Shown: in pieces, positions 10,909 through 26,104 of the stretch
Position numbering within the stretch: the first letter of the stretch is position 1
How the letters are laid out: the number at the start of each line of letters is the position of its first letter
NCBI RefSeq assembly: GCF_017571525.1
Contig: NZ_JAGETY010000017.1
Span: 1-64,000, forward strand
Length of the DNA stretch: 64,000 bases
Direction of reading: 5' to 3'
DNA from: Hymenobacter sp. BT559
GTDB taxonomy: Bacteria > Bacteroidota > Bacteroidia > Cytophagales > Hymenobacteraceae
The notes under the pieces: model-generated
Seen by the model: only the letters and a program-made list of their open reading frames with translations
What the model was told of the DNA's origin: nothing
Database searches by the model: none
Program-made: the position numbers and the translations under genes

Positions 10909-10910
10909 CA

Positions 10911-10941
10911 AAGGCCGCCCAGATTGCTGGGCGGCCTTTTT
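10911..10941. terminator. Bidirectional intrinsic terminator
   Basis: A 10-bp perfect GC-rich stem (GGCCGCCCAG, loop ATTG, CTGGGCGGCC) is followed by five Ts on the plus strand and by TTT on the minus strand. It lies between the convergent 91-aa gene and the end of the leftward conjugation operon, and probably ends both transcripts. Confidence 0.85.
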
Positions 10942-10966: not shown

Positions 10967-11335
10967 CTAGAATTGACTGGCCTGCATGACCAGCTCATCG
11001 TAAGCGCGCAGCTCCTGGCGGAACAGCGCGTGCGCTTCGGCGGTCGCAAACCAGAAGAAGTGGCTTTTCGTCCCGCCCGGCGCTACCAGGCGAATGACCG
11101 CCACGGAGTAGCCGAACGCAACGAAAAGGCGCTGCATCAGGGGCACGTGCCGCTGCCGGTCGTCCTTTTTGATTTCCACCAGCCGGGCGTAGTTAAAGCG
11201 GTGCGCGGCTGCCCAGGGCTTCATCTGCCCGTGGGCCAGCCGGTTGAGCCGGTAGCGGACGAAGCGCAGGGCCGTGGGGTAGTTAACGACGAGGGCCGGG
11301 TCCGGAAAGCCGGCGGCAGCCGAAGGGATGTCCAT
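10967..11335 (-). CDS. Small helix-turn-helix protein, paralogue of the 22650 gene
   Basis: A 122-aa protein with YPTALRFVRYRLNRLAHGQM followed by a Cro/XRE-like helical region (RFNYARLVEIKKDD...PLMQRLFVAFGY). The same order is found in the protein at 22650-23033 (LRYVQYRLKAIAQGDL, LTYTNVVNLKN, RLVQRVLRALGV), so the two are diverged paralogues. This copy is the last gene of the leftward conjugation operon and the other is transcribed divergently from the operon's head. A role in regulating transfer genes is inferred from position. The HTH assignment rests on pattern, not on a domain search. Confidence 0.65.
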   Translation of the reverse strand: MDIPSAAAGFPDPALVVNYPTALRFVRYRLNRLAHGQMKPWAAAHRFNYARLVEIKKDDRQRHVPLMQRLFVAFGYSVAVIRLVAPGGTKSHFFWFATAEAHALFRQELRAYDELVMQASQF

Positions 11336-11362
11336 ATGGGAAGTAAGCGACTGATTTCTTTC

Positions 11363-11758
11363 CTACTGCCCAATCACGTACACCGGGACCGCCGGCGCAT
11401 TTGCGCTCCGGCTCGTCTCCTTCTTCACTGCCCGGCCGTCGAGCAGGATGGACGCGGTGATTTCGGCCGCGGCCTCGCCCCCGTCGAGGCTAGCCAGCAA
11501 GCTCAGCTGGTCTCCTGGCTTCCTGGGATATTTGAAGTGGTAGGTGGCTGGCAATGGCACGTGGTTAAGCGCGGTAGTGCCGCCGCTCTCGTTGTCGTAG
11601 CTGAGGTAGTCGGACTCCGGGGCGGTGGTGGAAGTAACCCGGTCTTCCAGCTGGTATTCCTTCGGGCCGGAGGGAGCGGCGTTTTCTTTAGAGCAACTGG
11701 CGGTGGTGAGCGTGGCGCAGCTCAGCAGCAGAGATGCAAGTTGGGGCATTCGTTTCAT
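11363..11758 (-). CDS. Lipoprotein with MmpS-like beta-sandwich domain
   Basis: A 131-aa exported protein. The signal peptide ends in TTASCSK, giving a lipobox Cys near residue 22. The mature part has YLSYDNESGGTTALNHVPLP, then ITASILLDGRAVKKE. This order (Y-x-N-E-x-G, V-P-L-P, I-L-x-D-G-x-x-V) resembles the MmpS/transport-accessory fold described in actinobacteria. The assignment is tentative and from memory of the pattern. It sits near the end of the conjugation operon, after the TraO-like gene, so it may be an envelope accessory of the transfer channel. Confidence 0.6.
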   Translation of the reverse strand: MKRMPQLASLLLSCATLTTASCSKENAAPSGPKEYQLEDRVTSTTAPESDYLSYDNESGGTTALNHVPLPATYHFKYPRKPGDQLSLLASLDGGEAAAEITASILLDGRAVKKETSRSANAPAVPVYVIGQ

Positions 11759-11774
11759 CGGTCAGAAAGAGGGA

Positions 11775-12314
11775 TTAGCGAAAATGGTACCGCAGGCCTA
11801 TGCCGGCGTGGCCGAGCCACTGCTCAATAAGCGGATTGTTAAACAGGTAGCCCTTGGTGGCGGTAGCCACGAGGGAAAGCCGGTTGCCCAGGAAGAAATC
11901 CGCTTCCAAGCCCGCTTGCGGGCCGTAGGTAAAGCGCTGCGGCGTCTGAGCGCCGGCGGCCTGCTCTCCGGTGCCGTTTAGGTTGGTATGTTCGTAGCCA
12001 GCCCCGCCCCCAAGCAGCAGGTGCACGTAGGCCACCTCGCCCACGCGCAGCAGCTGCGGGGCCAGCAGCACCCGGCCAGCGTAGCGCTCGTATTGGCCCC
12101 GACCCGCCAGGGTTCCGGTTTCGCGCAGCCCGCTCCCGCGCAAAGCCAGCCGGTTGGTTAGCAGGGAGGTGTAGCTGGCTTCGTAGTAGGTACCGGTTTC
12201 GCTGCGGCCAACGTGGGCGCCCCAGGCGGCCATGTGTTTTACGTGGCGCTGGGCCAGCGCCGGCGCCGCGCCGGCCCCATCCAGCAACAGGGCCACGAGC
12301 AAGAGCTTTTTCAT
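11775..12314 (-). CDS. traO: Conjugal transfer protein TraO-like, outer-membrane barrel
   Basis: A 179-aa protein with a signal peptide ending in APALAQR, then amphipathic beta strands and a terminal aromatic segment (GIGLRYHFR), typical of a small outer-membrane barrel. Features such as GGGAGYEHTN, YGPQAGLEADFFLGNRLSLV and HAGIGLRYHF match the TraO family of Bacteroidetes conjugative transposons. It follows the VirB5-like gene in the leftward transfer operon. TraO proteins are required for transfer in Bacteroides CTnDOT-like elements, but their exact role is unknown. Confidence 0.72.
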   Translation of the reverse strand: MKKLLLVALLLDGAGAAPALAQRHVKHMAAWGAHVGRSETGTYYEASYTSLLTNRLALRGSGLRETGTLAGRGQYERYAGRVLLAPQLLRVGEVAYVHLLLGGGAGYEHTNLNGTGEQAAGAQTPQRFTYGPQAGLEADFFLGNRLSLVATATKGYLFNNPLIEQWLGHAGIGLRYHFR

Positions 12315-12341
12315 ATAGAGGATTGTTAATAAGGGCGGGTG

Positions 12342-13229
12342 TTAATGAGGGCGGGCACGGTCCATGCGCAGCAGGGATTGTTTGAGCAGCAAGTCCGCGT
12401 ACACGGACTGCGCGGCCTGGTGCGAGGGGCTCGGCAGGGAGGCCTCGCTGAGGAGCCGGTCGGCTTCGAGGCGCAGCTGCATGGCCTTAATCAGGTTGTC
12501 ATTGGTGGTGTTGAGCGCCGCAATCCGCTCGCCTTCCGTCATGGCGTAGCGGCCCGGATTCTTCAGCGTGGCGTTGAGCTCGATGCTCTGCTGGGTCATT
12601 TCGTCGGCAATCTTGTAGTAGCCGAAAGCCGTGTCAATCTTGCGCTTGGTGGCCAGCTCCTCGAAGGCAAACGTGGAGACGGCGGCTTCTTCGCGCTTGC
12701 CCTGGTACTCCTGCGGCGTCAGGCGGGTGTTGCCGGCCGTGGCCCCCGTCCCGAACTGCGAAAACACGTCGTACACTGTGTTCAGGTCCTGGCTGGGGTT
12801 GGTGAGCTGCAGGGCCTGGCGCAGGCGGGCAGCCTTGGGAAACACGGGCAGGTACTGGTTGCCCGGGCCCCGGCCCGACATGGCCAGCGCCCGGGTAAAC
12901 AGCTCCTGTGGGTTAGAAAGCCGCAAATCCTGAATGCTTTGCACCTTGCGCAGGTCGGCCTGAATCTGGCGCTGCAGCTCCAGCCCCTGGGAGGTGAGGT
13001 CTTTGACCTGGCCGGTGATGTCCTTGGTGACGCCGGCAATCTGCCGGGCATCGGCCACGACCTGGTAGTTCTGCACGGTTTCGGCCCACTCGCCGAGCTG
13101 CTTGGCAAACTGGCCGATGTGGACGCCCATGTGCAGCGGGTCATTCACCACAAATTGGGCAGCGGCTTTATCGGCGGGGGCCAGCACCAGGGCCAGGGCC
13201 AGTAGGGCGGGCAACAGAAGCTTTTTCAT
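12342..13229 (-). CDS. VirB5/TrbJ-like exported conjugation protein
   Basis: A 295-aa protein with a cleavable signal peptide (ends ADKAAAQF), followed by largely helical, Gln-rich sequence: FAKQLGEWAETVQNYQVV, then VKDLTSQGLELQRQIQADL, and a C-terminal helix ending SLLRMDRARPH. The NxxQ-rich coiled-coil start and length fit the VirB5/TrbJ group of minor pilus proteins. It lies between TraM (VirB10) and TraO. In Bacteroides elements this slot is usually held by other genes, so the label is by structure and context, not a clear family match. Confidence 0.6.
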   Translation of the reverse strand: MKKLLLPALLALALVLAPADKAAAQFVVNDPLHMGVHIGQFAKQLGEWAETVQNYQVVADARQIAGVTKDITGQVKDLTSQGLELQRQIQADLRKVQSIQDLRLSNPQELFTRALAMSGRGPGNQYLPVFPKAARLRQALQLTNPSQDLNTVYDVFSQFGTGATAGNTRLTPQEYQGKREEAAVSTFAFEELATKRKIDTAFGYYKIADEMTQQSIELNATLKNPGRYAMTEGERIAALNTTNDNLIKAMQLRLEADRLLSEASLPSPSHQAAQSVYADLLLKQSLLRMDRARPH

Positions 13230-13256
13230 CGTCTTAACCTGTAGCGTGAAAGAGAA

Positions 13257-14672
13257 TTACTTGCCAAGGGAGGACTCCGCGCCCATTTGGCCGGCTGCCG
13301 CAGTAGTAATCAGGATAGGGTAGCCGTCGGGCAGCAGCACGTCGCGCAGCTTGGTGTGGGTGCGGGGGCGTGCGAGCAGGCTGGCCCCAATCCGGCCGGC
13401 CACGCCGGTCACCGAGTTGGCGGCCGAGGCCGAGCGGTCAATGGCCGTGCTCAGCTCGCGGGTGGTTTGCAGCTGCAGGTCATTGCCGGCCAGCGCCGCA
13501 TCCCTGGCCACCCGCTTTTCCGGGTCAATGGCAATGCCCGGCAGGTAGTTGAAGTCGTAGATGCTGGCCTCCACCCGGGTCGGCCCGAGGCGGCTGACCG
13601 TGAACTGCACGCTGTTGGGTCCCACGCTGGCCACGCCCGCGAATACCAGGTTTTTGGGGAAGGTCACGCCGCTCACCACCGCATCTTCCAGCAGGCGCAG
13701 CAGCACGACCGAGCCGGTGCGCACCTTCTGCTCGCCGTTGATGACGCCCTTAAAAAACACATCGGGCACGAGCTGCTCCCGCGGGCCTCCCTGGGCCATT
13801 AAGCGCGAGGAGTTGCCCACTTTGACGGTGTTAAAGCCATCCTGGGTGGGCCCCGGGCTCGGGGCATTCGCGTGGTCGGCCAGCAGCTGCGCCGTCCGCT
13901 GCGGGTCCCGGTACCGCTTGCCCGTCATGCGCTCGTAGGCCTCGCGGGTGGCGGGGGGCGAGTTGGCCAGCATCTGGTTAACGTCGGGGTCTGTTTCAAA
14001 AGGAGTGCCGTCGGTGTCCCGGGCCGGCAGTAGGCGTTTGCCCGAGCGTCCTCTCCGCCGGCGGTCGCCCCGTGTAGCATCATTACCAGCGTTCCCCGAC
14101 GCGAGGCGATGGCGGGGCACCACCAGGGTTTGGGCGTGGTAGGAGCCGGTGGCGGGGTCCTGCAGCGTGGTTTCAATGGTGTCCACGTCGGCCGCTGCCC
14201 GCCGCGCCGCTTCCGCCCGCCGGGCGGCCGTGAGGGCCGCGGCCTGGGCCCGGCGGCGCTGGCGCAGGGCCCGGCCGGTGGTGTCCACGGCAAACACGTC
14301 GGCCACGTCGGCCTCGGTGGGCGCGGCCGGGGCCTGGTTGGCGTCCAGCTCCGCGCGGCGCTGGGCTTCCAGGTTGGCCGAGGGCGAGGCCGCCGGGGTG
14401 GGCGGGGCCGTTTCCACGGACCGAATTTCCGGCTCGATGTTGGCCGAGGCAGCGGCCACGGGCTCCTGCGCCTGCTGGGCGGCCTGCTGGGCCGATTTCA
14501 GCCACATAAACAGGCCCCCGACGATGAGCAAAACCAGCACGCCGGCGAAGGCCATCCAGTTGGTGCGCAGCAGTTCCGCCGGGGTGCGCTTTGGCGAAGC
14601 AGAGTGTGGCGTTTCGGAGTCCGGGCGGGTGGGCCGCTCGTCGGCGGCAGTGGGTGAGGTGAGGGGTTCCAT
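13257..14672 (-). CDS. traM: Conjugative transposon protein TraM (VirB10-like)
   Basis: A 471-aa inner-membrane-anchored scaffold of the transfer channel. One membrane segment lies near residues 40-58, after a Pro-rich cytoplasmic N terminus. A long Ala/Glu/Arg/Pro-rich periplasmic linker follows. The C-terminal third has the TraM core: VFFKGVINGEQKVRTGSVVL, RLLEDAVVSGVTFPKNLVFA and VEASIYDFNYLPGIAI. In the VirB system the equivalent spans inner and outer membranes. Here it follows TraN (VirB9), the reverse of the TraM-TraN order usual in Bacteroides elements. Confidence 0.88.
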   Translation of the reverse strand: MEPLTSPTAADERPTRPDSETPHSASPKRTPAELLRTNWMAFAGVLVLLIVGGLFMWLKSAQQAAQQAQEPVAAASANIEPEIRSVETAPPTPAASPSANLEAQRRAELDANQAPAAPTEADVADVFAVDTTGRALRQRRRAQAAALTAARRAEAARRAAADVDTIETTLQDPATGSYHAQTLVVPRHRLASGNAGNDATRGDRRRRGRSGKRLLPARDTDGTPFETDPDVNQMLANSPPATREAYERMTGKRYRDPQRTAQLLADHANAPSPGPTQDGFNTVKVGNSSRLMAQGGPREQLVPDVFFKGVINGEQKVRTGSVVLLRLLEDAVVSGVTFPKNLVFAGVASVGPNSVQFTVSRLGPTRVEASIYDFNYLPGIAIDPEKRVARDAALAGNDLQLQTTRELSTAIDRSASAANSVTGVAGRIGASLLARPRTHTKLRDVLLPDGYPILITTAAAGQMGAESSLGK

Positions 14673-14703
14673 AGGCTGGAGAAGTGGTTAGAGGAGCCTG
14701 GCA

Positions 14704-15621
14704 TTAAATGGTCGTGGCGCGGTTGATGACCCGCGAGGGCACTGGCAGCACCAGCACCCGCGCGCCGTTCAGCTCCCGCAGGGTGACTTCCAGGTAGCCG
14801 TGCTCGGTGGCCGCGTACAAGGGGATGGCGTAGGTCAGGTAGCCCGTGGTGCGGCCGGCGATAATCTGGTTGGGTGCCCCACCCGAGGGGGCCAGCGGCC
14901 GGCGGGCCTCGTTTTTCTTGCGCGCCAGAAACTTATGCTGCGCGTTTTCCACCAGCTGGAAATCGGTGAAGTCGACGTTGTAGTCGATGTTGGTCTTGTT
15001 GATGACCTTGAAGCGCAGGTAGGTGAAATCCTTGTCGTTGCGCACGTTGGCCAATGAAAGCACCAGGTCGTTGTCAACTACGGCCACGGCCTGGTGCTCT
15101 TCCCTGGCTTTGCGCAGCTGACTGAGCTTGCCTTCGACCGCGGTTTTCTTGGCTTCCTCCTTGTCCAGCGCCAGCTCATTTTCCGGCGCTGCGCCAGCGG
15201 AGCTGGTGCCGGCTACCCCGAGCGATTCGTCCCGCTGAAAGTCGTAGAGCTGGAGCACCGGGCGGTTGACGAACACGAGCCGGCCCATCCAGTACCTGGA
15301 GCCGTAGCGAATCAGCAGGGGGGTCGGCGGTGCGTTTTTGCGCCGGGCGCGCACGAACACGGCATTGCCCTCGATTTTGACCAGGAAATTGTTGGCCATG
15401 CCCACGTCGACCAGCGATACCGGACCCCCGAACACGAGGTAAGTCGTGGAGCTATCGGATACGGCCACGTCCAGCAGGCTTTTGGTTGCCTGCACGGCCG
15501 ACGAGGCCGGGCGCTGCACGCGGGCCGGCAGCGTGGTTTGCGCCGATACGGGCGCGGGAGTGAGCAACGTCAGGAAGTAAACCAGCAGGGCCGGCAGGGA
15601 GAAGTTACGCATGATGAGCAA
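14704..15621 (-). CDS. traN: Conjugative transposon protein TraN (VirB9-like)
   Basis: A 305-aa periplasmic/outer-membrane component of the secretion channel. A signal peptide ends at PAPVSAQ. The N-terminal half contains STTYLVFGGPVSLVDVG and NFLVKIEGNAVFVRA, a conserved TraN/VirB9 start. The C-terminal half has FTYLRFKVINKTNIDYNVDF and RTTGYLTYAIPL, matching the TraN beta-sandwich. Starts at 15621 (MLIMRNF) or 15612 (MRNF) are both possible; the second gives a more regular signal peptide. It sits between TraK and TraM. Confidence 0.88.
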   Translation of the reverse strand: MLIMRNFSLPALLVYFLTLLTPAPVSAQTTLPARVQRPASSAVQATKSLLDVAVSDSSTTYLVFGGPVSLVDVGMANNFLVKIEGNAVFVRARRKNAPPTPLLIRYGSRYWMGRLVFVNRPVLQLYDFQRDESLGVAGTSSAGAAPENELALDKEEAKKTAVEGKLSQLRKAREEHQAVAVVDNDLVLSLANVRNDKDFTYLRFKVINKTNIDYNVDFTDFQLVENAQHKFLARKKNEARRPLAPSGGAPNQIIAGRTTGYLTYAIPLYAATEHGYLEVTLRELNGARVLVLPVPSRVINRATTI

Positions 15622-15647
15622 GGGGTTTAGAAGGTTAGCTTGGCAGA

Positions 15648-16424
15648 TTAGCGGGGCCGGGGAGTGGGTGAGGACGCTGGCGCGGGCGCTGCCGGGACTG
15701 ATTGCGCGGGAGCGGTGAGGGGCGCCGGGCCGGGAGCTGCACCGGTTGCGCCGCGCTGCGCTTCCTGCAGGCGGCGCTGGCGGTCCACTTCCTGGGCGGC
15801 CAGGGCTTCGGCCTCTTCCCGCGACACGGCGGGGCTGTAGGGGATATAGTCGAAGTTGGTAATCAGCAGCCCGTAGGGGTTCTGGTCCGAGCGGTTCGTT
15901 TCTTCGAGGTTAAACCTGGCGGCCAGCGGCAGGGGCTCCTTCTGCTGGCCCCCGATGAAGATGCGCTGCTTGATGTAGACCTGGCCCGACCAGGGGCGGC
16001 GGCTCAGGTCCACGAGCACGCTATCCACCGTGACCACGTTGCGGGCGTCGTAGCGCTCGTAGTTCTGCAGCACCTGCCCGCGTGTGAAGCCCTCGTAGAT
16101 GCGCCGGCCCCCGCGCCCCTCAATCAGGGGCAGGGCCGCGTCCAGATTGGCCTTGTAGGTGTACTGGTCGTGGCCGAACATGGTCTGCATGAAGTTGCGG
16201 ACCAGGTTGCGGGCTTCGTAGGGCGTATGGGCATCGCCCGCGGCCGAGAGAGCGGCCACCGAGCCGGTTTGCGAAACGACGTACACGCGCCGGCCGCTGT
16301 TCTCGTAGGCGCGGTACACCAGCAGGCCCGAGCCAAGCGCGATGAGCAGCAGGGCGGCCAGGCTGCCCATGGCCAGGTTGCGCATGGTCGAGAAGGAAGT
16401 GCTTAAGTCTTGGGCGGAATCCAT
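15648..16424 (-). CDS. traK: Conjugative transposon protein TraK (VirB8-like)
   Basis: A 258-aa bitopic inner-membrane protein. A short cytoplasmic tail is followed by a membrane helix (about 18-36) and a periplasmic NTF2-like VirB8 domain with YEARNLVRNFMQTMFGHD, YERYDARNVVTVDSV and PYGLLITNFDYIPYSP. These are TraK hallmarks. The C terminus is Ala/Pro-rich (about 40 residues), longer than typical. VirB8 proteins nucleate the channel by contacting VirB9 and VirB10, both encoded directly downstream. Confidence 0.88.
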   Translation of the reverse strand: MDSAQDLSTSFSTMRNLAMGSLAALLLIALGSGLLVYRAYENSGRRVYVVSQTGSVAALSAAGDAHTPYEARNLVRNFMQTMFGHDQYTYKANLDAALPLIEGRGGRRIYEGFTRGQVLQNYERYDARNVVTVDSVLVDLSRRPWSGQVYIKQRIFIGGQQKEPLPLAARFNLEETNRSDQNPYGLLITNFDYIPYSPAVSREEAEALAAQEVDRQRRLQEAQRGATGAAPGPAPLTAPAQSVPAAPAPASSPTPRPR

Positions 16425-16507
16425 GGAAATAGGGAGGTGATAGGCTGGTTGTAAGGTCTGGGGAGGAAGGGTGAAGCATTCTTTCCCTACCGCCCAAAAG
16501 GCAGTGC

Positions 16508-17143
16508 CTACTGCCGGGGGAAAGGCAGGGCCAGGTGCCGCAGCTCGTTGGTGAAAGCGTCGCCCTTGTGGTTGTAAGGGTACACGATGAGGGCCGGCCG
16601 CTGCTGGCTGGTGCCCGCGTAGGCGTAGAGCGTCCCGTGTACGGTAACGGACTGCTGGGGCTTGATTTGAGAGGAGGTGAACCCGCTAGTATCGGGCAGG
16701 TAGCTGCTGGCCGCGGAGTAGATGCTGGCCACGGTATCTCGCCCGTTTGGCGTGTAAAGCGTCAGCACGGACATTTTCTGCTCATCGGGGCCTTGCGTAA
16801 TGGGTTGCCAGCGGAGCACGGCCTCGTAGGATAGGCGGTAGCCCGGCACCACTGGTTTCGCCTGACGCAACGCGGTCCAGCTGGCCGGCTGCCGCACGGA
16901 AAGGGACTCTGCCTTCAGCACCTTGGCGGAGACCAGCTGCAGGTAGCTTTGCCCGTGCGCGGACGTGGGCAGCTGCAGTTCCACGGCTGGGCGAATGTCC
17001 ACCCCGGCCAGGGAAGGCGAAGCAGCGGAAGCAGCAGATGCTGGCGGTGCGCCGGGCGAGTTCGCCTTCGTGGCAGTCGGCGCGGAGTTGCAGCCGGTGA
17101 CCAACAGGAAGGCCAGGCAGCCGAGACCGGGTAGGTTTTTCAT
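16508..17143 (-). CDS. Lipoprotein of the transfer operon, unknown family
   Basis: A 211-aa protein with a lipoprotein signal (FLLVTGCNSA, Cys near residue 18), an Ala/Ser/Pro linker and a predicted beta-rich domain (VDIRPAVELQLP, RLSYEAVLRWQPI, SVTVHGTLYAYAG). No family is recognised. It lies between TraJ (VirB6) and TraK (VirB8) in an otherwise continuous transfer operon, where a VirB7-like outer-membrane lipoprotein would be plausible, although it is much longer than classic VirB7. That role is inference from position and lipidation only. Confidence 0.65.
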   Translation of the reverse strand: MKNLPGLGCLAFLLVTGCNSAPTATKANSPGAPPASAASAASPSLAGVDIRPAVELQLPTSAHGQSYLQLVSAKVLKAESLSVRQPASWTALRQAKPVVPGYRLSYEAVLRWQPITQGPDEQKMSVLTLYTPNGRDTVASIYSAASSYLPDTSGFTSSQIKPQQSVTVHGTLYAYAGTSQQRPALIVYPYNHKGDAFTNELRHLALPFPRQ

Positions 17144-17174
17144 AAGTAAGGAAGTGGGAAGAAGTCGGAGGAAA

Positions 17175-18299
17175 TCAGTAAGTCCAGATGCCCGAGGCGC
17201 GCTGCCGGTAGGAAGGATTCATGGCTTCCGACATGGTGATGGAGGGTAGGCCCGCCGAAGCAGAGCTGCCGGATGGTTCAGTTCCTCCCCCACTGCCTGC
17301 GCTGCTGCCGCCTGGGGCCAAACCACCGCCACTGCTGCTACCTCCACTGCCACTGCCGCCCCCGCCCATAGCGCGGCCAATGGCCCCGGAAACCCCGTGG
17401 CCCCGGCCGGCCATGCCGGCCTGCACCCCCGCGGCGGCCGAGGCCACGCCGGTCACCATGCCCACCATGGAACCGGCGAAGCCCTGCGCGGCCGAGGAGC
17501 CGATGAATAGCGAGGTGAGGTAGGGCACCATCACGTACATGAGGATGAAGGCTGCCGAGGTAATGGTGAACAGGTCGGCATCGCCGGCCGCGCCCCCGGT
17601 GGCCGCGCCGCTCATGCTGCTGGCGTAGAAGCTGTAAAGCGTGTCGAGCAGCACGAACGTGAGGCTCCACAGCTGCACAGCCAGGAAGTTCTGCAGCCAC
17701 TTCAGGCCCAGCTGCCCGAAGGCCGGGATGACGGAGAGTGTCAGCGAGATGGGCCCGCAGATGTAGAGGAACCCCAGGATGAACTGCTGGAGAAACTTCA
17801 TTATCTGCTGTACGACCAGCACCACGGCCCCGGTGAACAGGCGCGTGAGGATGCCCTGAATGGAAAAGGAGTCGAAGAAGCCCTTGATGTCGGCCAGCAT
17901 GTCCGGGGCCTGCGTGACCACGTCGCCCTCGCTCACGGCGCCGGTGCCGGCCTGGCTGTTGACGGCGGCCCCGTGGAAGTCGTTGAGCGCGGCGGCCGCC
18001 GAGGGGTGCGAGGCCAGCACGCCGGTGAAGCCGGCGATGCCCGCGCTGAGCGTGTCGAGCAGGCTCTGGTAGAAAAAGAGCAGGAAGAAAATCCAGGTCG
18101 CCTTGATGATGGGCCCCCAGTCCATTGCCAGGCCGTTGCCGCTGATAAAGCCGCGCCCGATGGTGTAGAGCAGAGCAATGCCCATCAGGCTGGGCGTCAG
18201 AAAGCGGCAGGCGGTGAGCACGTCGGCCAGGGCCGCGTCGCAGGCGTCGAGAAAGTGCTGGTCCACCCCGTAGGCGACCATGAGCAGGCACTGGCTCAT
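17175..18299 (-). CDS. traJ: Conjugative transposon protein TraJ (VirB6/TrbL-like)
   Basis: A 374-aa polytopic inner-membrane channel protein. Hydrophobic segments lie at about 28-50, 65-90 (TWIFFLLFFYQSLLDTLSAG), 150-200, 215-235 and 245-275. A Gly/Ala/Ser-rich C-terminal tail follows (GRAMGGGGSGSGGSSSGG). The N terminus and FLYICGPISLTLSVIPAFG fit TraJ of Bacteroidetes conjugative transposons. Its ATG overlaps the TraG stop as ATGA, so translation is probably coupled. It should form part of the inner-membrane DNA/protein path. Confidence 0.85.
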   Translation of the reverse strand: MSQCLLMVAYGVDQHFLDACDAALADVLTACRFLTPSLMGIALLYTIGRGFISGNGLAMDWGPIIKATWIFFLLFFYQSLLDTLSAGIAGFTGVLASHPSAAAALNDFHGAAVNSQAGTGAVSEGDVVTQAPDMLADIKGFFDSFSIQGILTRLFTGAVVLVVQQIMKFLQQFILGFLYICGPISLTLSVIPAFGQLGLKWLQNFLAVQLWSLTFVLLDTLYSFYASSMSGAATGGAAGDADLFTITSAAFILMYVMVPYLTSLFIGSSAAQGFAGSMVGMVTGVASAAAGVQAGMAGRGHGVSGAIGRAMGGGGSGSGGSSSGGGLAPGGSSAGSGGGTEPSGSSASAGLPSITMSEAMNPSYRQRASGIWTY

Positions 18300-20908
18300 T
18301 GCACGGACACCCGGCGGGCCTGCTTATCTTCCACAAACTGGTCCACGGCGTAATCCAGCCGCTGCACTTTTACTTCGTCGTACAGGGGAGCCCCGTCCGG
18401 GCCCAGCAGGAAATTGCCGTTTTTGTCGGTGCGCGGCCGCCTGTTGGTCTGCTGGTAGAACCTGACCAGGTTGTTGAGGTGGTTGCGCTCCACGGGCCTG
18501 GAGGTGAGAATGGCATCCAGCTGCGGGGAGGCTTCCAGGGCGAAGACCTTGCCCTTGGCGCCCTGCTTGACGAAGAACTCCCGCAGCTGCTCGGTGGAGC
18601 GTACCGAGCGAATCAAATCCATCTCGTGCCCGGTCAGGCCGAGGGGGGCCTGCAGCTGGGCGAGCGAGTCGGGGTTGACGTGGCGCAGGATAATCTTGGT
18701 GGCTGAGTTGTTGATGATGGCCGGCCCGATTTTGCTGCTGGTTATCTCGGTGATGCCCTGCGTAATGATGGTCACCGAGCCGTTGGTTTTCCGAATGGTG
18801 CGGTACATCGACTCGATAAACTCCGAGAGCACGCCCGAGAGCATGGTCCAGGCCTCGTCCAGGGCGATGTACTTGACCGCGTCCGGAAATTTGCGGAACA
18901 GGTCCAGGCTCAGCTCGGTGATGAGCATGGCCACCACCGGGTAGAGGTCGGGGTCAGCCTGCACCTTGGCCAGGTCGAAGCAGATAAGCCGGTATTCCGA
19001 CAAGTCCACGTCACGCCGCGCGTTGAGCACCCGCTCGTAGCGGCCGCCGGTGATGTACTGACCCAGCACCAGGAAGAACTGGTGCATGTCGATGTACTTG
19101 AGATTCTTCTGGTACTGGCGCCGCGCGCCGTCCAGCGGGTCGGCCTCCAGCCCTTCGCCAGCCGGGGTTACCGGCTTCTGCATTTCGTGGTCAAACTGCT
19201 CGACGAACTTATAAAAGCTTTCCATTCCGGGAAACTCCTCGTCCTTCTGGCCCAGCCGGTCGCTCTCGTTCAGGCCGGCGTAGTACTCAATCAAAAAGCG
19301 GCTTAGGATGGTCCGCTCCGACTTGTCCAGGCCCGTGTCCTTGCCGCCCTTCCAGAGGGCGGTGAGCAGGGCCAGGTGGAAATTGGTTTTCTCATCGTTG
19401 TAAAGCCACTTGCCCGAAGCATCCCGGGGCACCAGGAAGGGGTTGAAGGCAATGGGCCGGGTGGGGTCGTACTCGAAGTAGGTGTGGTCGAAGTCCTCGC
19501 CGTTGAGCGACTGCAGCACGTTGCGGTAAGTGCCGCCCACGTCCATGATAATCTGGCGGGCGCCCTTCTCGAAGCGTTGCACAATCAGGTTGCCGAAGGT
19601 GTAGCTCTTGCCCGAGCCGGAGGGACCCACAACGATGGCGTTCTGGTTGTCCAGGGCGGTGTTGAACAGGTTTACCTGCACCAGGTTGCGGAAGCGGTCG
19701 GTGAGGTACTCGCCCACCGGGTCGGTTTTGTAGGTGGCCGTCCAGTGCAGGTAGCACGCGGCCCGGTCGGCGGTGCTCGTCAGCCAGCGGTCGGGCACCT
19801 GCCAGGCGTTGCCGGGCAGCAGGCCGAAGAACACGGGCAGCGCCAGGTAGCTTTCCACCACGCTTTCCGTGCCGAACATGTAGCGAAAAGCCCCGGTGGC
19901 CTTTTCCACGTTCTCGCGCCGGCTGGTGTCGTTGGTGTCCCAGAGAACGCACGAGAGGTGCAGCCCCACGATTTGCTTGTTCTCAGCCCGCACTTCGGCG
20001 GTGAAGGCTTCGACTTCGGCCGCCCGCAGCTCGTTGTCCTGAGTAGCCAGAAAGGAGAGCGAAGCGTTCAGCTTGCGGTCCGTGTCGAGGGCGCTGACGG
20101 CGGCCCGGGTATCCTGCACCAGCAGGGCCTGCGTCAGGATGTGCGGGCACTGCAAAATGTGGGTCAGGGGGTAGAGCATGGGCGCCGTTACTCCGTAGCT
20201 GTTCTTCACGGCCGGGTAGGCGTCGCTGCCCTGACCCACCATTGAGAGCACATTCACCTGGTGCTCGCCGACGCTGAGCGTGCCCAGGGCATTGCCAAAC
20301 TCGCGCTCCTGCCGGGTGGGCTGCCCGTCGAAATTGAGGTTGAAGTACTGCAGGTAGAGCTGGTGAATCTGGCGGCTGTCCAGTCGCTCGAAGGCGACGC
20401 CGCCCAGGTTCTTTATGCCCTGCACGAACTCCACGGCGGCCGCCTCGGCCACTTCCAGCGTGTGCACGAGCTGGGCAAACGGGTTCTTAAGCACGGCCTC
20501 GCCGGCCCGGGTCACCAGGGCATTCACGGCGTTGGTCTTGGGCGACTTGACGGCCACCGGCGCGAACGAGAGGAACAGGTAGGACTTCTGAAACAGCACC
20601 AGCCGCTCCAGAAAGTGCTTGTTCATCTTGTGCTCGAAGTAGGTCTGCTGGGTTTTGTCCTCGCGGTAGGGCCGGTCGTAGTAGACATCGGTTTTCTGCA
20701 CGATGGTGCCCACCGGCAAGGGGCGCAGCACGCCCACCAGCGCCGTTTGGAAGGCGTCGTAGTCGTCGCTGGTCCAGCTCTCCATTTCGGCGGGCTCAAT
20801 CAGGAAGCCCACGCCCACGCGGCCATCCTTGAAAATGACTTTGTCGGCCTCGAAGCTGTGCACGGGCATCACGGCGCTGAAGGCGGCGGTTTTAGGCTTT
20901 TTGGTCAT
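18296..20908 (-). CDS. traG: TraG-family conjugation ATPase (VirB4-like)
   Basis: An 870-aa ATPase that energises assembly of the type IV secretion channel. The N-terminal part (about 1-400) is the VirB4 N domain. The C-terminal motor has Walker A VVGPSGSGKSY (about 430), Walker B KYIALDEAWTM (about 680) and TIITQGITEI. The length and sequence match Bacteroidetes TraG, which despite its name is VirB4 and not the VirD4/TraG coupling protein. It overlaps TraF by 17 bp upstream and TraJ by 4 bp downstream. It is the best-conserved gene of the module. Confidence 0.95.
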   Translation of the reverse strand: MTKKPKTAAFSAVMPVHSFEADKVIFKDGRVGVGFLIEPAEMESWTSDDYDAFQTALVGVLRPLPVGTIVQKTDVYYDRPYREDKTQQTYFEHKMNKHFLERLVLFQKSYLFLSFAPVAVKSPKTNAVNALVTRAGEAVLKNPFAQLVHTLEVAEAAAVEFVQGIKNLGGVAFERLDSRQIHQLYLQYFNLNFDGQPTRQEREFGNALGTLSVGEHQVNVLSMVGQGSDAYPAVKNSYGVTAPMLYPLTHILQCPHILTQALLVQDTRAAVSALDTDRKLNASLSFLATQDNELRAAEVEAFTAEVRAENKQIVGLHLSCVLWDTNDTSRRENVEKATGAFRYMFGTESVVESYLALPVFFGLLPGNAWQVPDRWLTSTADRAACYLHWTATYKTDPVGEYLTDRFRNLVQVNLFNTALDNQNAIVVGPSGSGKSYTFGNLIVQRFEKGARQIIMDVGGTYRNVLQSLNGEDFDHTYFEYDPTRPIAFNPFLVPRDASGKWLYNDEKTNFHLALLTALWKGGKDTGLDKSERTILSRFLIEYYAGLNESDRLGQKDEEFPGMESFYKFVEQFDHEMQKPVTPAGEGLEADPLDGARRQYQKNLKYIDMHQFFLVLGQYITGGRYERVLNARRDVDLSEYRLICFDLAKVQADPDLYPVVAMLITELSLDLFRKFPDAVKYIALDEAWTMLSGVLSEFIESMYRTIRKTNGSVTIITQGITEITSSKIGPAIINNSATKIILRHVNPDSLAQLQAPLGLTGHEMDLIRSVRSTEQLREFFVKQGAKGKVFALEASPQLDAILTSRPVERNHLNNLVRFYQQTNRRPRTDKNGNFLLGPDGAPLYDEVKVQRLDYAVDQFVEDKQARRVSVQ

Positions 20909-21224
20909 GGGCAGCGGGGGAAGACGGAAAAGACAGGGAGGGCAGCGGCCCCACGGCCAGGCGGCGGGGCTGCAGGAAGGTGTAGGACAGCCAGGCCACC
21001 AGGAAGCCCGGCGCCTGCTTTTTGCTGAGCTGACGCAGGCCGAGCAGCAGCGCGAGCTGCGCGCCCACGACGAGCAGGTACACGAGGCGGGGGATTTTGA
21101 CCGCCATGCCCAGGAATCCGAGCAGCAGCACGGAGCCGATGAACAGGCCGACCAGCAAACCCAGGTCCTGCAGGTTGATACCCAGGACCTGGGCCGGTCG
21201 CTCTATGCTTTTGTAGGTGCGCAT
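20892..21224 (-). CDS. traF: Conjugation protein TraF, DUF4133 (VirB3-like)
   Basis: A 110-aa inner-membrane protein with two hydrophobic segments (about 20-40 and 45-62). It opens with YKSIERPAQVLGINLQDLGLL, the characteristic DUF4133 start, and has GFLVAWLSYTFLQPRRL after the membrane hairpin. VirB3-type proteins work with VirB4, and the reading frame overlaps TraG by 17 bp, in line with coupled expression. Confidence 0.88.
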   Translation of the reverse strand: MRTYKSIERPAQVLGINLQDLGLLVGLFIGSVLLLGFLGMAVKIPRLVYLLVVGAQLALLLGLRQLSKKQAPGFLVAWLSYTFLQPRRLAVGPLPSLSFPSSPAAHDQKA

Positions 21225-21238
21225 GGGAGGAGCGGACC

Positions 21239-21661
21239 TTATTTCACGCCCCCGGCGCCCCCGCCGACCGCGCCCACCAAATCGTCTTTGAAGAGCTGGA
21301 AGCCAAACCAGAGAATGACCCCGCCCACGAGCCAGCCCAGGGAGCCCAGCGCATCGGGGCTGCCCTGCACGAACTTCATCACCACCCGAATCAGGCCGAT
21401 GATGAGGATGATGGCGAAGATGACCTGCACGATGCCCACGACCGTTTCCTGCACGGTGCTCAGCGCGGCCGCCGCGGCGCCCCCTCCACTGCCGGCCGCC
21501 AGGGCCGGGGTGGGGCCGGCGGCCAACGCCGTCAGCACGGCGGCGGCGCGCATTTCCGCGGGGGAGGGTTGGTAGCTGCGGCCGGCTAGGGCCAGGGTCT
21601 GGAGGTGAGTGGTGGCGGTGGCCAGGCGGCTCCGGCCGTGCGACAGCAAATGGAATAGCAT
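21239..21661 (-). CDS. traE: Conjugation pilin-like protein TraE, DUF4134 (VirB2-like)
   Basis: A small membrane protein with a signal region ending GPTPALAAGSGG, then two hydrophobic helices (VQETVVGIVQVIFAIILIIG and LGSLGWLVGGVILWFGFQL) separated by the short loop RVVMKFVQGSPDA. This is the DUF4134/VirB2 pilin layout. The ATG at 21661 (MLFHLLSH) is chosen; a GTG at 21736 would overlap the upstream gene, and an ATG at about 21556 (MRAAAV) would give a shorter, typical signal peptide. The start is therefore uncertain. The C terminus is Gly-rich (AVGGGAGGVK). Confidence 0.8.
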   Translation of the reverse strand: MLFHLLSHGRSRLATATTHLQTLALAGRSYQPSPAEMRAAAVLTALAAGPTPALAAGSGGGAAAAALSTVQETVVGIVQVIFAIILIIGLIRVVMKFVQGSPDALGSLGWLVGGVILWFGFQLFKDDLVGAVGGGAGGVK

Positions 21662-21725
21662 AAAGTAGGAACTGGATGAAAGAAGGGCGCTTATCTCCCC
21701 GAAAGCAGGTGAGTTATCGGATGTA

Positions 21726-22403
21726 TCAGGCGCCACCGGCGGGCACGCCGGTGGCGCCGGGAAAAAGGCCGTTCAGCGCTGCGCGCTGCGCGGCGGAGCC
21801 GGCGGCCATGCGGGCGCGCCGCTGCTGGCGCAGGGCTATCTCCGCCGCCCGGTTGGCCTGGTCGTTGGCCGTGGGCGCCGGCGCGGTGAGCGGGTTGTGG
21901 AAGAGGGCGGCCGCAATGGGCTCGTCGGCGTCATCTGGCACTTCGGGGGCGGGCTCAGCCACCTCCTCGTTGGGGAGCGGGGCCGGCGCTGGCACCTGGT
22001 CCAGGGCATCGAGCAGGGAGCCTACTGCCCCGGCCGTGTGCCGGATGGAAGCTGGCTGGGGAGTTGCTGCTGCGGCTGCTTGCGCCGGGGATAGCAGCTC
22101 CGCATTGGCCTTTTCAATCCAGGCTGTCTGTTCGGCTTGCTGCCCGGCGGATGAGGCAGTCGGCGCTATTTCCACTGCTTCTTCCCCATCCAGCAGCCGG
22201 CCGATGGCTGTGCCGGGGGCCCCTGGCGGCTGAGCCGCTTTAACCGGGCCGTAATGAAAGACGCGTAGGGAGTGATGATTGCGGGTGGCGACGGCCGCTG
22301 GCTCGGCCGTTGCGGTGCGGCCCGCTCCTTTAAAGCGCCACCACAGCAGCCCACTCAACGCCACCACGGCGGCCACAACCAGGAAGAGTAACCCAAAGCG
22401 CAT
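21726..22403 (-). CDS. Membrane-anchored protein heading the transfer operon
   Basis: A 225-aa protein with a single N-terminal membrane anchor (LLFLVVAAVVALSGLLWW) and a long Ala/Pro/Glu-rich region, ending in an Arg/Ala-rich helix (RAAEIALRQQRRARMAAG). No family is recognised. The architecture (anchor, Pro-rich linker) and the C-terminal RQQRRAR motif superficially resemble the N-terminal half of TraM at 13257-14672, which also has REAxR/RRRAQAAA segments. It is the first gene of the leftward operon, so its promoter must lie in 22404-22649. Confidence 0.6.
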   Translation of the reverse strand: MRFGLLFLVVAAVVALSGLLWWRFKGAGRTATAEPAAVATRNHHSLRVFHYGPVKAAQPPGAPGTAIGRLLDGEEAVEIAPTASSAGQQAEQTAWIEKANAELLSPAQAAAAATPQPASIRHTAGAVGSLLDALDQVPAPAPLPNEEVAEPAPEVPDDADEPIAAALFHNPLTAPAPTANDQANRAAEIALRQQRRARMAAGSAAQRAALNGLFPGATGVPAGGA

Positions 22404-22649
22404 ACCGCCCCATACGGGAAGGTCGAAAATTATGTTAGCAAAAAGTTAGTAAAAACTTAAATACATCTTGGTCGTATGAGGTGCAGACCAGCGAGGCAGC
22501 GGCTTCGGTAGAGTAGACTGGTAGTGAGGACTTGGCGGAAGATTTGCGTTTTTCCTCGATGGCGGTGCGGCTTGTAAGCCCGGTATGCGTCCTTTGGGGA
22601 AGTTATCTGCTATTTTATCCTCACTGCCCTCCGCCGTCCGCCACTTCGC

Positions 22650-23033
22650 ATGGTACCATCCGATCCCGTTTCCCCCTCACTGGGGTTTCCTGATTTAAGC
22701 TTGTCCGCGCCCTACGGCGAGTGCCTGCGCTACGTCCAGTACCGCCTCAAGGCCATCGCCCAAGGTGATTTAACCCCTTTTTGCACCCAGCATGGCCTGA
22801 CCTACACCAACGTCGTGAACCTGAAAAACGGCAAGCTCAAGCGTGACGAGCCCCGGCTGGTGCAGCGCGTGCTACGGGCGTTGGGCGTGCCCACCGACAT
22901 GGTGCGCATCGACATCGGCAGCGGCGCCAACCAGTACGTGTTCGGCAGCGCCGGGCAGCTGGCGCAGTTTCGCGAGCAGCTGGCTTTCCTGGATGCCGCC
23001 GCCCAGCGGGCCGGCACGCCTCCTACTACCTAA
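22650..23033 (+). CDS. Small helix-turn-helix protein, paralogue of the 10967 gene
   Basis: A 127-aa protein divergent from the transfer operon. It contains YGECLRYVQYRLKAIAQGDL, then HGLTYTNVVNLKNGKLKRDE and RLVQRVLRALGVPTDMVRI, which reads like an XRE-type DNA-binding fold. The C-terminal part has FGSAGQLAQFREQLAFLD. The protein at 10967-11335 shows the same succession, so both descend from one ancestor. Its position between the transfer operon and the Toprim gene suggests control of one or both. Binding sites are expected in the 246-bp divergent region. Function is inferred. Confidence 0.68.
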   Translation: MVPSDPVSPSLGFPDLSLSAPYGECLRYVQYRLKAIAQGDLTPFCTQHGLTYTNVVNLKNGKLKRDEPRLVQRVLRALGVPTDMVRIDIGSGANQYVFGSAGQLAQFREQLAFLDAAAQRAGTPPTT

Positions 23034-23113: not shown

Positions 23114-26104
23114 ATGAATGCACCCCGGGAAAACGACCCCACCGAGCTTGACCGCTTCAAGCGAGATATTGATTTGGTTGACTACGCCCAGCGCCAGGGC
23201 TACGAAATCAGGAAGGAAAGCCGCCGCGGCGACTGGCACCACCTGGTCCGGGACGACGAGCACGTCATCATTACCCGCAAGGGCGACCACCAGGTGTACC
23301 TGAATACCGGCGACGACCGCGATGCGGGCTCCATCATCGACTTTGCCAAGACTAGAGGCGGCGACGGCCAGGGCCTCAGCCTGGGCCAGGTGCGCCAGCA
23401 GCTGCGCGAGTACCTCGACGGCGCGCCGGCCCCCGCCCGCCTGTATGCGACTCAGTACGCCAGCCCACCCGACCCGGTGCGGCTGAGCAGCCTGCCTGCG
23501 GGCGACCCCGAGCAGGTAAAGCAAGCCGAAGAAGCGCGCAAAACCCGGCTGATTTCCGAGGTGCTGGGCGTGAAAAAGGAGCTGACCGACCGCAGCTACC
23601 TGCACGGACGCGGCATCACCGACGCCACGCTCGACAGCCCGGCGTTTCAGGGGCGCATCTTTACCGCGCAGCAGAACGACCATAAGAACACGGCTTTTCC
23701 CCTCTACAATGAGCAGGGTCTGGCCAGTGTCGAGCAGAAGAACGCGCACTACAAAAGCCTGCTGCCGCTGCCCAAAAACGGCATCTGGGTGTCCCACCCT
23801 ACTGACGGCAGGGACACGCCGGTGGAGCGCGTGGTGGTGAGTGAGTCGGCCATTGACTCGTTGTCCCACTTTCAGCTCAGGCACGGGCAGGACGCCAAAA
23901 ACACGCTTTATATTGCCACCAGCGGTACGCCCACCGAGGCGCAGGTGGCCCTGATTCAGCGGGTGATTGATAAGCAGGCGCCCCAGGAAGTGGTGCTGGC
24001 CAACGACCTCGACGCCGGGGGCCGGCAGTTCAACATCAACTACCTCAACGAGCTGCAGCCGGCCCGGCCCTTCGTGCCGGTCGGTGAGCAGGCAGCCTAC
24101 AAGGAAGCTACCCGCCCCGTGGAGTGGCACGCCACGTCCGACAAGTACCACGTGAGTTTGAAAGTGAGCTTCCAGCACGATACTGCCGAGCAGGGGGCGC
24201 AGCAGGTGCAGCAGCTCAGCGAGCGGGTGGCCCGCATGAACAGCACCCAGGAAAACGGCCCCGCCTTAGCGGTAGAAGTGCAGCGCAGCACCGACCGCGC
24301 CACCATCGTGCGCCTGACGGTGGCCCGCGCCGATACCGCCCAGCTCGAAGTCATTGCGCAGGAACTGTACCGCCAGCGCGAGCAGCTGCGCCCCGAGCCA
24401 GAGCGCCAGCAGCAAAGCTTTCTGCGCGTGGACTACCCGCTGGCCAAGGACTTCAACCGGGAGTTGGACTACACCCGCCAGGGCCTCAGCGCCGAGCAAA
24501 TCCGGGCCGCGGCCCAGCGCGAGGAGCAGCAGCGCGAGTCGGAGCGCCAGCAGCGCCTGGCCGATGCCCAGCGCCAGCAGCGGGAGCTCCGGGAGCAGGA
24601 GCGACAGCAGGCGCAGGCCCAGCATGAGGCCAGCCCCGATGCCCGGCGCCAGGAAGATGACCGGCAGGTCACCCAGGGCGTGGTGGGTGCGGCCGTGGCC
24701 GACTCGGAAGCCCGTCCGTTCCGCTCCTACCAGACGGAGCAGGAGGCGGCCGAGCACACCGCGCAGTTTGTGCACGCCCGGGATGCCGGGTTAGTGCTGT
24801 TGAAAGAGTACATCAATGACAACCCCCCTCCCACCGGCCGCAAGGTCGATGAGGCCGAGCTAGCCGACCTGCGCGACCGGGCCAGCTATGCCACCGGGCA
24901 GGCTGGTGCCGCTGCGAAGAAAACGGCCACGTGGAAGATTGACGAGGTAGCCCCGAATACCACCGGCCGGGCCGAGGCGTGGAAAGAGGTGCTCGATAAA
25001 TCCGGGTATTCCCTGCAAACCAGCGAAATCCGCAGCACCGTGGATGAGCAGGGTATCCGGCGCGCTGAGTTCGACATGACCTACCGCAACGACCAGCCCG
25101 ACATTGCCCTTATCCACGTCCTGGTGACCAACACGAATGCGCGGGCCGAGGCGGGACTGGAGAAGTTTGCCGGCGTGCGCGTCGCCGAGTCCGAAGCCGA
25201 CCACGCCACGCGTCAGGTAGCCGCGGAAGCTGCCCCCATTCAGCCGCACAACCGCGACCGCAGCCTGGCTAGCGTCGCCAAGCCAGCGGCTGAGGGCCAG
25301 CCCGAGCGTCAGCCTGCCGCCGCTGTTGCGCCCGGTCCTGAAGCGCAACCGGCCTCACCAGCTACTGAGCAGCCCCGGCCGCGTCACCTGGCGGCTCCCG
25401 CGCCCATCTATCTGAACACGGTGCCCATGTCGGATGGGACGATTAACAGCCGCGACACCAGCAGCCAGGCGGCCCATTACAGCCTGTACCAGATTCAGGT
25501 TGATGCGCAAAATCCAAACAAGGCTGTGTTGCTGCCCGCGCCCGGGGCCGAACCCCAGCTGATGAGTGGCTACCATCAGGTACTGCGGCCGGCCTACGAC
25601 CTGACCAGTCAACCCAAAGCCGGCGATGCCTACGTGGCCGTGGTGATTCCGACGCAGCTCGAACGGACGGCCGAGGGCTGGAAAATCACCGCGCGGGGGC
25701 AGGCCGGGTTCAGCCCTACCCTCGCCGCCGAGCGCAGTAGCCCCGAAGCCGTTTTAGCAGCGCCGGGCGCCGAGAAGCAGGTCCTTATCAAAGTAGACGA
25801 AATGGCGCCAGCGCCCGGGGCGCGGGGGCAGGCTGAAGCCGTAAAGGACGCTCTCACCAACAGCGGGGCCAGAGCCGGCTCCGTACAGAGCACCACCGAC
25901 GAGCAGGGCATTCGCCACTCTGAAATGGAGGTGTCGTACCGCACCGACCAGCCCGATATTGCCCGCGTCAGCCAGACCCTCGATGCCCTAGCCGGGCAGC
26001 GCGGCACCCAGGTCACGGAGCACGGCAGCGACCGGGCCGAGCGGCACGAAGCGGCCGGCCATAGTCCGGAGGCCAGGCAACCCGCTCAGCAGCTGGAGCG
26101 GTAA
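23114..26104 (+). CDS. Large Toprim-domain protein with duplicated C-terminal domain
   Basis: A 996-aa protein of the Toprim/DUF3991-like group found on Bacteroidetes mobile elements. The N-terminal part (about 1-110) carries DLVDYAQRQGYEI, as seen in DNA-primase-like proteins. The Toprim region (about 235-310) has VVVSESAIDSLSHFQL and VVLANDLDAGGRQF, giving the conserved Glu and the DxD-type acidic pair. A Gln/Arg/Glu-rich coiled-coil segment (about 455-520) follows. The last 400 residues hold two related units (WKIDEVAP...DEQGIRRAEFDMTYRNDQPDIA and IKVDEMAP...DEQGIRHSEMEVSYRTDQPDIA), about 250 residues apart. It may prime or process transferred DNA. A relaxase motif was not found. Confidence 0.75.
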   Translation: MNAPRENDPTELDRFKRDIDLVDYAQRQGYEIRKESRRGDWHHLVRDDEHVIITRKGDHQVYLNTGDDRDAGSIIDFAKTRGGDGQGLSLGQVRQQLREYLDGAPAPARLYATQYASPPDPVRLSSLPAGDPEQVKQAEEARKTRLISEVLGVKKELTDRSYLHGRGITDATLDSPAFQGRIFTAQQNDHKNTAFPLYNEQGLASVEQKNAHYKSLLPLPKNGIWVSHPTDGRDTPVERVVVSESAIDSLSHFQLRHGQDAKNTLYIATSGTPTEAQVALIQRVIDKQAPQEVVLANDLDAGGRQFNINYLNELQPARPFVPVGEQAAYKEATRPVEWHATSDKYHVSLKVSFQHDTAEQGAQQVQQLSERVARMNSTQENGPALAVEVQRSTDRATIVRLTVARADTAQLEVIAQELYRQREQLRPEPERQQQSFLRVDYPLAKDFNRELDYTRQGLSAEQIRAAAQREEQQRESERQQRLADAQRQQRELREQERQQAQAQHEASPDARRQEDDRQVTQGVVGAAVADSEARPFRSYQTEQEAAEHTAQFVHARDAGLVLLKEYINDNPPPTGRKVDEAELADLRDRASYATGQAGAAAKKTATWKIDEVAPNTTGRAEAWKEVLDKSGYSLQTSEIRSTVDEQGIRRAEFDMTYRNDQPDIALIHVLVTNTNARAEAGLEKFAGVRVAESEADHATRQVAAEAAPIQPHNRDRSLASVAKPAAEGQPERQPAAAVAPGPEAQPASPATEQPRPRHLAAPAPIYLNTVPMSDGTINSRDTSSQAAHYSLYQIQVDAQNPNKAVLLPAPGAEPQLMSGYHQVLRPAYDLTSQPKAGDAYVAVVIPTQLERTAEGWKITARGQAGFSPTLAAERSSPEAVLAAPGAEKQVLIKVDEMAPAPGARGQAEAVKDALTNSGARAGSVQSTTDEQGIRHSEMEVSYRTDQPDIARVSQTLDALAGQRGTQVTEHGSDRAERHEAAGHSPEARQPAQQLER

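Follow-up and report, generated by a model that had tools for sequence, protein, structure and literature searches.

What is the role of two related small genes that bracket a conjugation operon? The question is raised by a stretch of 64,000 nucleotides from Hymenobacter sp. BT559 (positions 1 to 64,000 of contig NZ_JAGETY010000017.1, here called the window), in which a transfer (tra) operon for a type IV secretion system (T4SS) ends with one of the genes (the tail gene), while the other (the head gene) lies at its start and points away from it. A preliminary description of this DNA had suggested that the pair is a duplicated regulator that could provide feedback control, an arrangement not known from CTnDOT-like elements. 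In our analysis, the best explanation is that the head protein acts as a master regulator of the tra, mobilization (mob) and replication (rep) regions of a plasmid by binding arrays of DNA repeats, and that the tail protein is an accessory modulator produced upon full read-through of tra. As judged from sequence comparison, we give this reading a probability of roughly two in three. Both open reading frames (ORFs) were found where they had been placed before, at 10967-11335 on the minus and 22650-23033 on the plus strand:

10967..11335, minus strand: tail gene, A-type, 122 amino acids, paralogue of the head gene and last gene of the tra operon
22404..22649, no strand assigned: divergent intergenic region between tra and the head gene, which holds the array
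22434..22477, plus strand: operator-like array of four 11-bp direct repeats, GTTAGCAAAAA GTTAGTAAAAA CTTAAATACAT CTTGGTCGTAT
22650..23033, plus strand: head gene, B-type, 127 amino acids, encoding a probable XRE-like helix-turn-helix (HTH) regulator, divergent from the tra operon

The homology of the two proteins was assessed by BLASTP, which gave 33% identity over 109 amino acids (E=4e-20); a whole-genome search with the head protein as query recovered the tail gene at E=1.5e-13. The common LRxVxYRL start and helical core noted in the preliminary description are real, and the start was refined to LR(F/Y)V(R/Q)YRL. Seven copies of the family are present in the genome, two on the window contig (C8), two on C7, one on C12 and two adjacent copies on C13. 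Between plasmids, the ratio of nonsynonymous to synonymous substitution rates (dN/dS) was roughly 0.1-0.2 for the head gene and roughly 0.15-0.3 for the tail gene, indicating purifying selection on both. Profile searches with 37 members showed no match to Pfam or NCBIfam families, and 10 of the 37 gave a weak match to a PHROG annotated ‘transcriptional regulator’ (E 0.017-0.03). We consider the head and tail proteins to be members of a family without an earlier description and probable DNA-binding regulators. Family members occur in 66 of 120 Hymenobacter genomes, and the family profile detected them in four of the six genera that make up the taxonomic family, as well as in a few genomes from other parts of the order. 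Matches in PLSDB were all to Hymenobacter plasmids except for one Rufibacter plasmid, and the genes there are mostly annotated as hypothetical protein.

Conserved DNA next to the head gene contains a likely operator. Alignment of the tra/head intergenic regions revealed a conserved block near the tra start that consists of phased 11-bp repeats. When repeat spacings from 6 to 25 were compared upstream of head genes, a lag of 11 was best (mean z 3.2, compared to -0.5 to 1.9 for the other lags). Within the window array, GTTAGCAAAAA and GTTAGTAAAAA are strong units, and CTTAAATACAT and CTTGGTCGTAT are degenerate. The core ACTAACTTTTTACTAA has three occurrences in 5.1 Mb at ≤2 mismatches, all of them on C8: at tra, in the rep/par region at 66.3 kb and at 68.6 kb before the mob operon, which encodes a BfmA/BtgA-like protein, a relaxase and a coupling protein. 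A scan of the genus found the core in 18/18 genomes with this head type compared to 12/102 others (Fisher 8e-14, a value that overstates independence, since the plasmids are related and the motif was discovered in them). A scoring matrix (B1) built from the tra arrays only was then scanned over 2.17 Mb at a threshold of 20 bits. There were 51 matches >20 bits, and 49 of these were located at tra/head, upstream of MobA or ~480-540 bp from rep; one of the other two lies beside ParA on G003:C7 (G and C numbers are our handles for genomes and contigs) and one at the edge of a fetched stretch. In the held-out closed plasmid NZ_CP110138.1, exactly three arrays were detected, at tra (38.4), rep (37.5) and mob (27.2), with the next match at 14.8.

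Other plasmid lineages carry different repeat units at corresponding sites. The C7-type lineage has the unit GTTCTGAAAGA in longer arrays at the same place before tra, with a second array site before the mob operon in C7 and G035, and the held-out closed plasmids NZ_CP043648.1 and NZ_CP095057.1 carry C7-type arrays at both tra and mob. Further units, GTTATAAAATT and ATTATAAAGAA, were found at tra in G021 and G010, along with weaker copies before mob; the head proteins of these two have near-identical recognition helices and their repeat units are near-identical as well. The Rufibacter plasmid shows the same layout with an 11-bp array between head gene and tra. The B1 matrix gave no match on C7, C12 and C13 and the B2 matrix none on C8. 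Since the C7 and C8 matrices do not cross-match, the co-resident plasmids have separate operators. Two unlinked solo members of the family have an 11-bp array of their own upstream. No array was found upstream of the tail gene, as expected for a gene inside an operon. Between the array and the head gene, two near-invariant blocks (window 22540-22620; AGATTTGAGTTTTTCC and TATGCGTCCTTTGG in relatives) are perhaps the head promoter or a second site.

The element that carries the pair is not a CTnDOT-like transposon, but a conjugative plasmid with a CTnDOT-related T4SS. Outside the window, the 103,946-bp contig C8 encodes a Rep_3 initiator (Rep3_N/Rep3_C) with iteron-like repeats, ParA with a small partner ORF, a BfmA/BtgA-like gene, a DUF5712 relaxase, a coupling protein (T4CP) and Fic. 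An integrated CTnDOT-like element without a plasmid replicon is ruled out by the Rep_3, ParA, relaxase and T4CP genes. The closed plasmid NZ_CP110138.1 is annotated with the same backbone, and the relatives are closed plasmids in PLSDB or circular contigs. Terminal overlaps of 75-77 bp indicate that three related contigs (C13 of this host and two of other genomes) are circular; no such overlap was found at the ends of C8. The iteron-like repeats, (C)TTATAAAACGTGGT, lie upstream of the Rep_3 initiator at 65.8-66.4 kb of C8 and adjoin the rep-side 11-bp array.

Structure prediction favours an HTH-like core over the absence of a DNA-binding fold, in line with the HTH proteins proposed before. AlphaFold models were built with the family alignment and reached a predicted local distance difference test score (pLDDT) of 81 for the head and 88 for the tail protein. 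In both models, a strand is followed by four helices, then by a beta hairpin and finally by a long C-terminal helix; the four helices of the head model (H22-35, H38-48, H52-59 and H68-77) appear in the same order in the tail model. In Foldseek searches, the best PDB matches of the head model were of the XRE type (2o38 with a probability of 0.98, 2a6c, SinR, HigA2 and C.Esp1396I), and the tail model weakly matched a phage repressor (probability 0.89 over 60 amino acids). From these models, we favour a lambda-repressor/XRE-like HTH core in both proteins. PDB matches of the family profile to TAL effectors at E 1e-31 were rejected as an artefact of summed sub-threshold repeats, each with an independent E-value of ~22 or more.

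In the proposed mechanism, the head protein, as founder of a new family of plasmid master regulators, would bind the phased 11-bp direct repeats through its XRE-like HTH and would control, most likely repress, three promoters, namely that of the tra operon together with its own gene, that of the mob operon and, in this plasmid lineage, that of the rep region. Each plasmid lineage would possess its own repeat sequence, so that no cross-regulation is expected between related plasmids that share a cell. The tail protein would be made only when tra is transcribed to its end, and it would probably modulate the head protein, either in a mixed complex or as an antagonist. The head protein is the best candidate for the binder of the arrays because its gene is their constant neighbour, the array follows the head lineage and two solo family members have arrays. 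A fully specified circuit, with a head repressor reading lineage-specific arrays, a tail antagonist or co-factor reporting completion of tra and no cross-regulation between plasmids, is put forward tentatively.

The position and origin of the pair were compared between plasmids, together with a further gene:

23114..26104, plus strand: Toprim/DUF3991 gene, 80 bp downstream of the head gene and constantly paired with it in other plasmids

Gene position is the most regular feature: throughout the tra-bearing plasmids that we examined, the Toprim gene directly follows the head gene, which points away from tra. One plasmid lineage carries two tandem genes at the place of the head gene, the first tail-like and the second head-like, and the tandem-first gene products share 47-48% identity with the tail protein. 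The seven tail copies group in the tree as a single clade (support 95/95) that is sister to the tandem-first genes (97/96; joint support 100/98), and the head copies fall into other clades. This grouping identifies the window pair as old A/B paralogues. A recent duplication is ruled out by the joining of tail and tandem-first genes at 100/98, and the duplication within the element that the preliminary description had assumed gives way to two old branches of the tree. Judged by the tree, the A gene that closes the tra operon in this lineage and the one that adjoins the B gene in another are orthologous. In tandem-gene plasmids (e.g. G009:C10 45929-46190), the intergenic region between tra and the first gene contains a conserved inverted repeat, ACTATACGGA-GCACTT-CCGTATAAGT, in place of a clear long 11-bp array; it is a possible operator of the tandem pair.

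The preliminary description had proposed to look for the pair in other Hymenobacter elements, and plasmids of the genus with both genes in the corresponding places do exist. Nine plasmids (C8, G080, G081, G085, G090, G092, G118, G219 and G225, the coordinates of the last matching the closed plasmid NZ_CP110138.1) carry an A gene at the operon end, in all cases on the opposite strand and about 11.4 kb from the B gene. The A gene is missing from the sister plasmids G067, G097, G107, G119 and G121, which were checked directly, and was not seen within the stretches read of G002, G134 and G065; in several sister plasmids, head gene and arrays occur without a tail gene. The position of the head gene is fixed and the tail gene is accessory. 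The contig G083:C13, with a tail-gene remnant at 72524, a mob-side array and no intact head gene, suggests a plasmid that lost tra.

To consider what the tail protein might recognize, its recognition helix (FNYARLVEIKK) was compared with that of the head protein (LTYTNVVNLKN). Helix 3 shows 30% identity between the two, most positions differ, and there is a one-residue deletion nearby in the tail protein. Lacking the recognition-helix residues of the head protein, the tail protein is probably not a simple reader of the same operator. Between tail and tandem-first proteins, the recognition helix is 88% conserved, compared to 33-69% for the other helices and the C-terminus. This conservation extends across plasmids with different operators, so the helix does not track the operator; it seems more likely that it serves a shared partner or site. 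On these alignments, we therefore consider it more likely that the tail protein modulates the head protein than that it reads the array as well. From gene position, the early and late feedback by two regulators that had been proposed is plausible.

Several observations weigh against the proposed role of the head protein. The Foldseek E-values for the head model are ~0.05 or worse, and no significant match to an HTH family was found by sequence in Pfam, NCBIfam or the PDB. Most solo members lack an upstream 11-bp array, a matching mob array was looked for and not found in the tandem-gene lineage (C13), and none was detectable in G031. The head-bearing plasmids G080 and G022 have no array on the tra side, while G083:C13 (78563) and G003:C7 (100779) retain a mob array on a contig that lacks a full head gene. 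Furthermore, ParA and its small partner gene (contig C8 66635-67078, a rival candidate binder) are co-inherited with the head gene, and this makes the partner protein the main rival: the arrays could be its centromere-like or regulatory sites, with head and tail proteins having another role. Partition proteins that bind phased 11-bp repeats are known, such as StbA of R388 (PMC3098194); the mob array is flanked by ParA on one side and the mob operon on the other, and the rep array is close to the par genes. On the other hand, the strongest array is located at tra/head, ~45 kb away, and in this lineage a distance of 112-231 bp separates the mob array from the mob gene, compared to 640-810 bp for ParA. 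NZ_CP043648.1 has arrays and no partner gene listed after ParA (in a gene table that is incomplete), the Rufibacter plasmid has its array at tra/head with none found at the ParA/mob region, and the arrays of the two solo members also speak against it. We regard this explanation as unlikely. That the repeats are mainly promoter elements is highly improbable. The -7 box of Bacteroidota has the consensus TAnnTTTG. Inspection of the unit in the direction of tra, ACTAACTTTTT, shows that it contains TAACTTTT, which is near this consensus; however, the core is absent from the rest of the 5.1-Mb genome at ≤2 mismatches, the TTCT-type repeats of other lineages occupy the same sites without TAACTTTT, array orientation relative to the downstream mob operon varies between lineages, and up to about seven phased units occur.

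The tail protein could also act differently from the modulator described above. Both proteins might form one array-binding hetero-oligomer in which the tail protein is a co-repressor exerting negative feedback rather than an antagonist. This is a possibility of lesser weight; a tail-type gene directly before a head-type gene in other plasmids looks as if the two were made together, yet several head-bearing plasmids of this lineage keep all arrays without a tail gene, and the difference in helix 3 also argues against a joint reader. That the tail gene is merely carried along at the operon end, as a relic or a selfish copy without a part in transfer control, is rather unlikely. Its patchy presence among sister plasmids would fit such a copy, but purifying selection has acted over dS near 0.5-1.2, the gene occupies the same slot in nine plasmids, and presence and absence are cleanly delimited between the preceding ORF and the terminator or convergent gene.

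The leftward tra operon is close-packed, with the tail gene starting 28 bp after the preceding ORF, and is of the Bacteroidota TraG/TraM/TraN/TraO type. Its ORFs at 11363..22403 (minus strand) and the terminator are, gene by gene:

21726-22403, minus strand: hypothetical, first gene of the operon
21239-21736, minus strand: TraE-like/DUF4134
20892-21224, minus strand: TraF-like
18296-20908, minus strand: VirB4/TraG ATPase
17175-18299, minus strand: TraJ-like
16508-17143, minus strand: hypothetical
15648-16424, minus strand: TraK
14704-15621, minus strand: TraN/DUF4138
13257-14672, minus strand: TraM
12342-13229, minus strand: hypothetical
11775-12314, minus strand: TraO
11363-11758, minus strand: hypothetical
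about 10910..10939, minus strand: intrinsic terminator hairpin just past the tail gene (-26 kcal/mol, z=-6.6)

Convergent genes for an AbiEii toxin and an AbiEi-like antitoxin (window 7986-9760) adjoin the end of the operon. Elsewhere in the family, a strongly diverged branch with ~25-33% identity comprises the copy at G000:C7:122423-122761, which adjoins the umuC gene of its plasmid, and relatives in G087, G100 and G109. Members on chromosome-sized or large contigs that are not near tra (G136:C1:4438915, G077:C5:41716, G120:C39:41139 and G068:C1:840667) are possible host-domesticated regulators. For the member at G117:C2:8422, the open frame continues into the Toprim gene (1172 amino acids), perhaps a natural head-Toprim fusion protein.

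Conjugation control in plasmids of Bacteroidota has been little described, and no description of transfer control in a Hymenobacter plasmid was found in the literature searched. It is now possible to name a regulator family, its probable operators to the base and, for each plasmid, three promoters that are probable targets, in plasmids that carry metal-resistance and repair genes. Four plasmid contigs of this genome carry the family, and the lineage-specific arrays suggest how several related conjugative plasmids may coexist in one host without mutual disturbance.

CTnDOT is an integrated element whose transfer is induced by tetracycline via an activator cascade (RteA/B/C, Xis2c/Xis2d and Exc). 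It shares the TraG/TraM/TraN/TraO type of Bacteroidota T4SS with C8, which differs in having a Rep_3 replicon, a divergent HTH gene and repeat arrays. In its presumed working, the system described here is comparable to global regulators of broad-host plasmids, namely StbA and ArdK/KorA, and to the divergent master regulator RcoLS20. RcoLS20 of the Bacillus plasmid pLS20 is an autoregulating master regulator whose gene and the conjugation operon diverge from an intergenic region that contains its operator sites (PMC4207663). The divergent gene and the intergenic sites resemble the present layout; the system is Gram-positive, and a tail paralogue and mob/rep arrays are undescribed in what is available of that account. 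ArdK and KorA (TrfB) of IncW, IncN and IncP plasmids are HTH repressors of ~100 amino acids that act at several plasmid promoters, with four helices and a strand/helix dimerization part, and ArdK binds direct repeats, its operators being two 6-bp repeats beside or overlapping the -35 box (PMC9723621). Candidate operators at several promoters are likewise predicted here, as arrays at tra, mob and rep, though with 3-7 phased 11-bp units. Membership in the KorA or ArdK families was rejected (hhalign probabilities of 0.2% and 2.6%), and the KORA profile matched none of the 37 members, while a TrfB-related R388 protein used as control matched at 2.9e-28. StbA of R388 binds direct repeats of 9 bp with 2 bp spacing, i.e. 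with an 11-bp period, and two to three copies of these repeats (stbDRs) are also found at other plasmid promoters (PMC3098194). Membership in the StbA family was rejected as well (hhalign probability 0.2%). Tandem repeats of 11-bp period near the head gene and at other plasmid promoters were found here too, and both systems combine a small plasmid DNA-binding protein, probable in our case, with such repeats and a link between transfer and maintenance functions (PMC3098194). However, the stbDRs are located by the stb operon near the origin of transfer (oriT) and at maintenance promoters (PMC3098194), whereas our arrays are found at tra, mob and rep and the gene for the probable regulator points away from tra.

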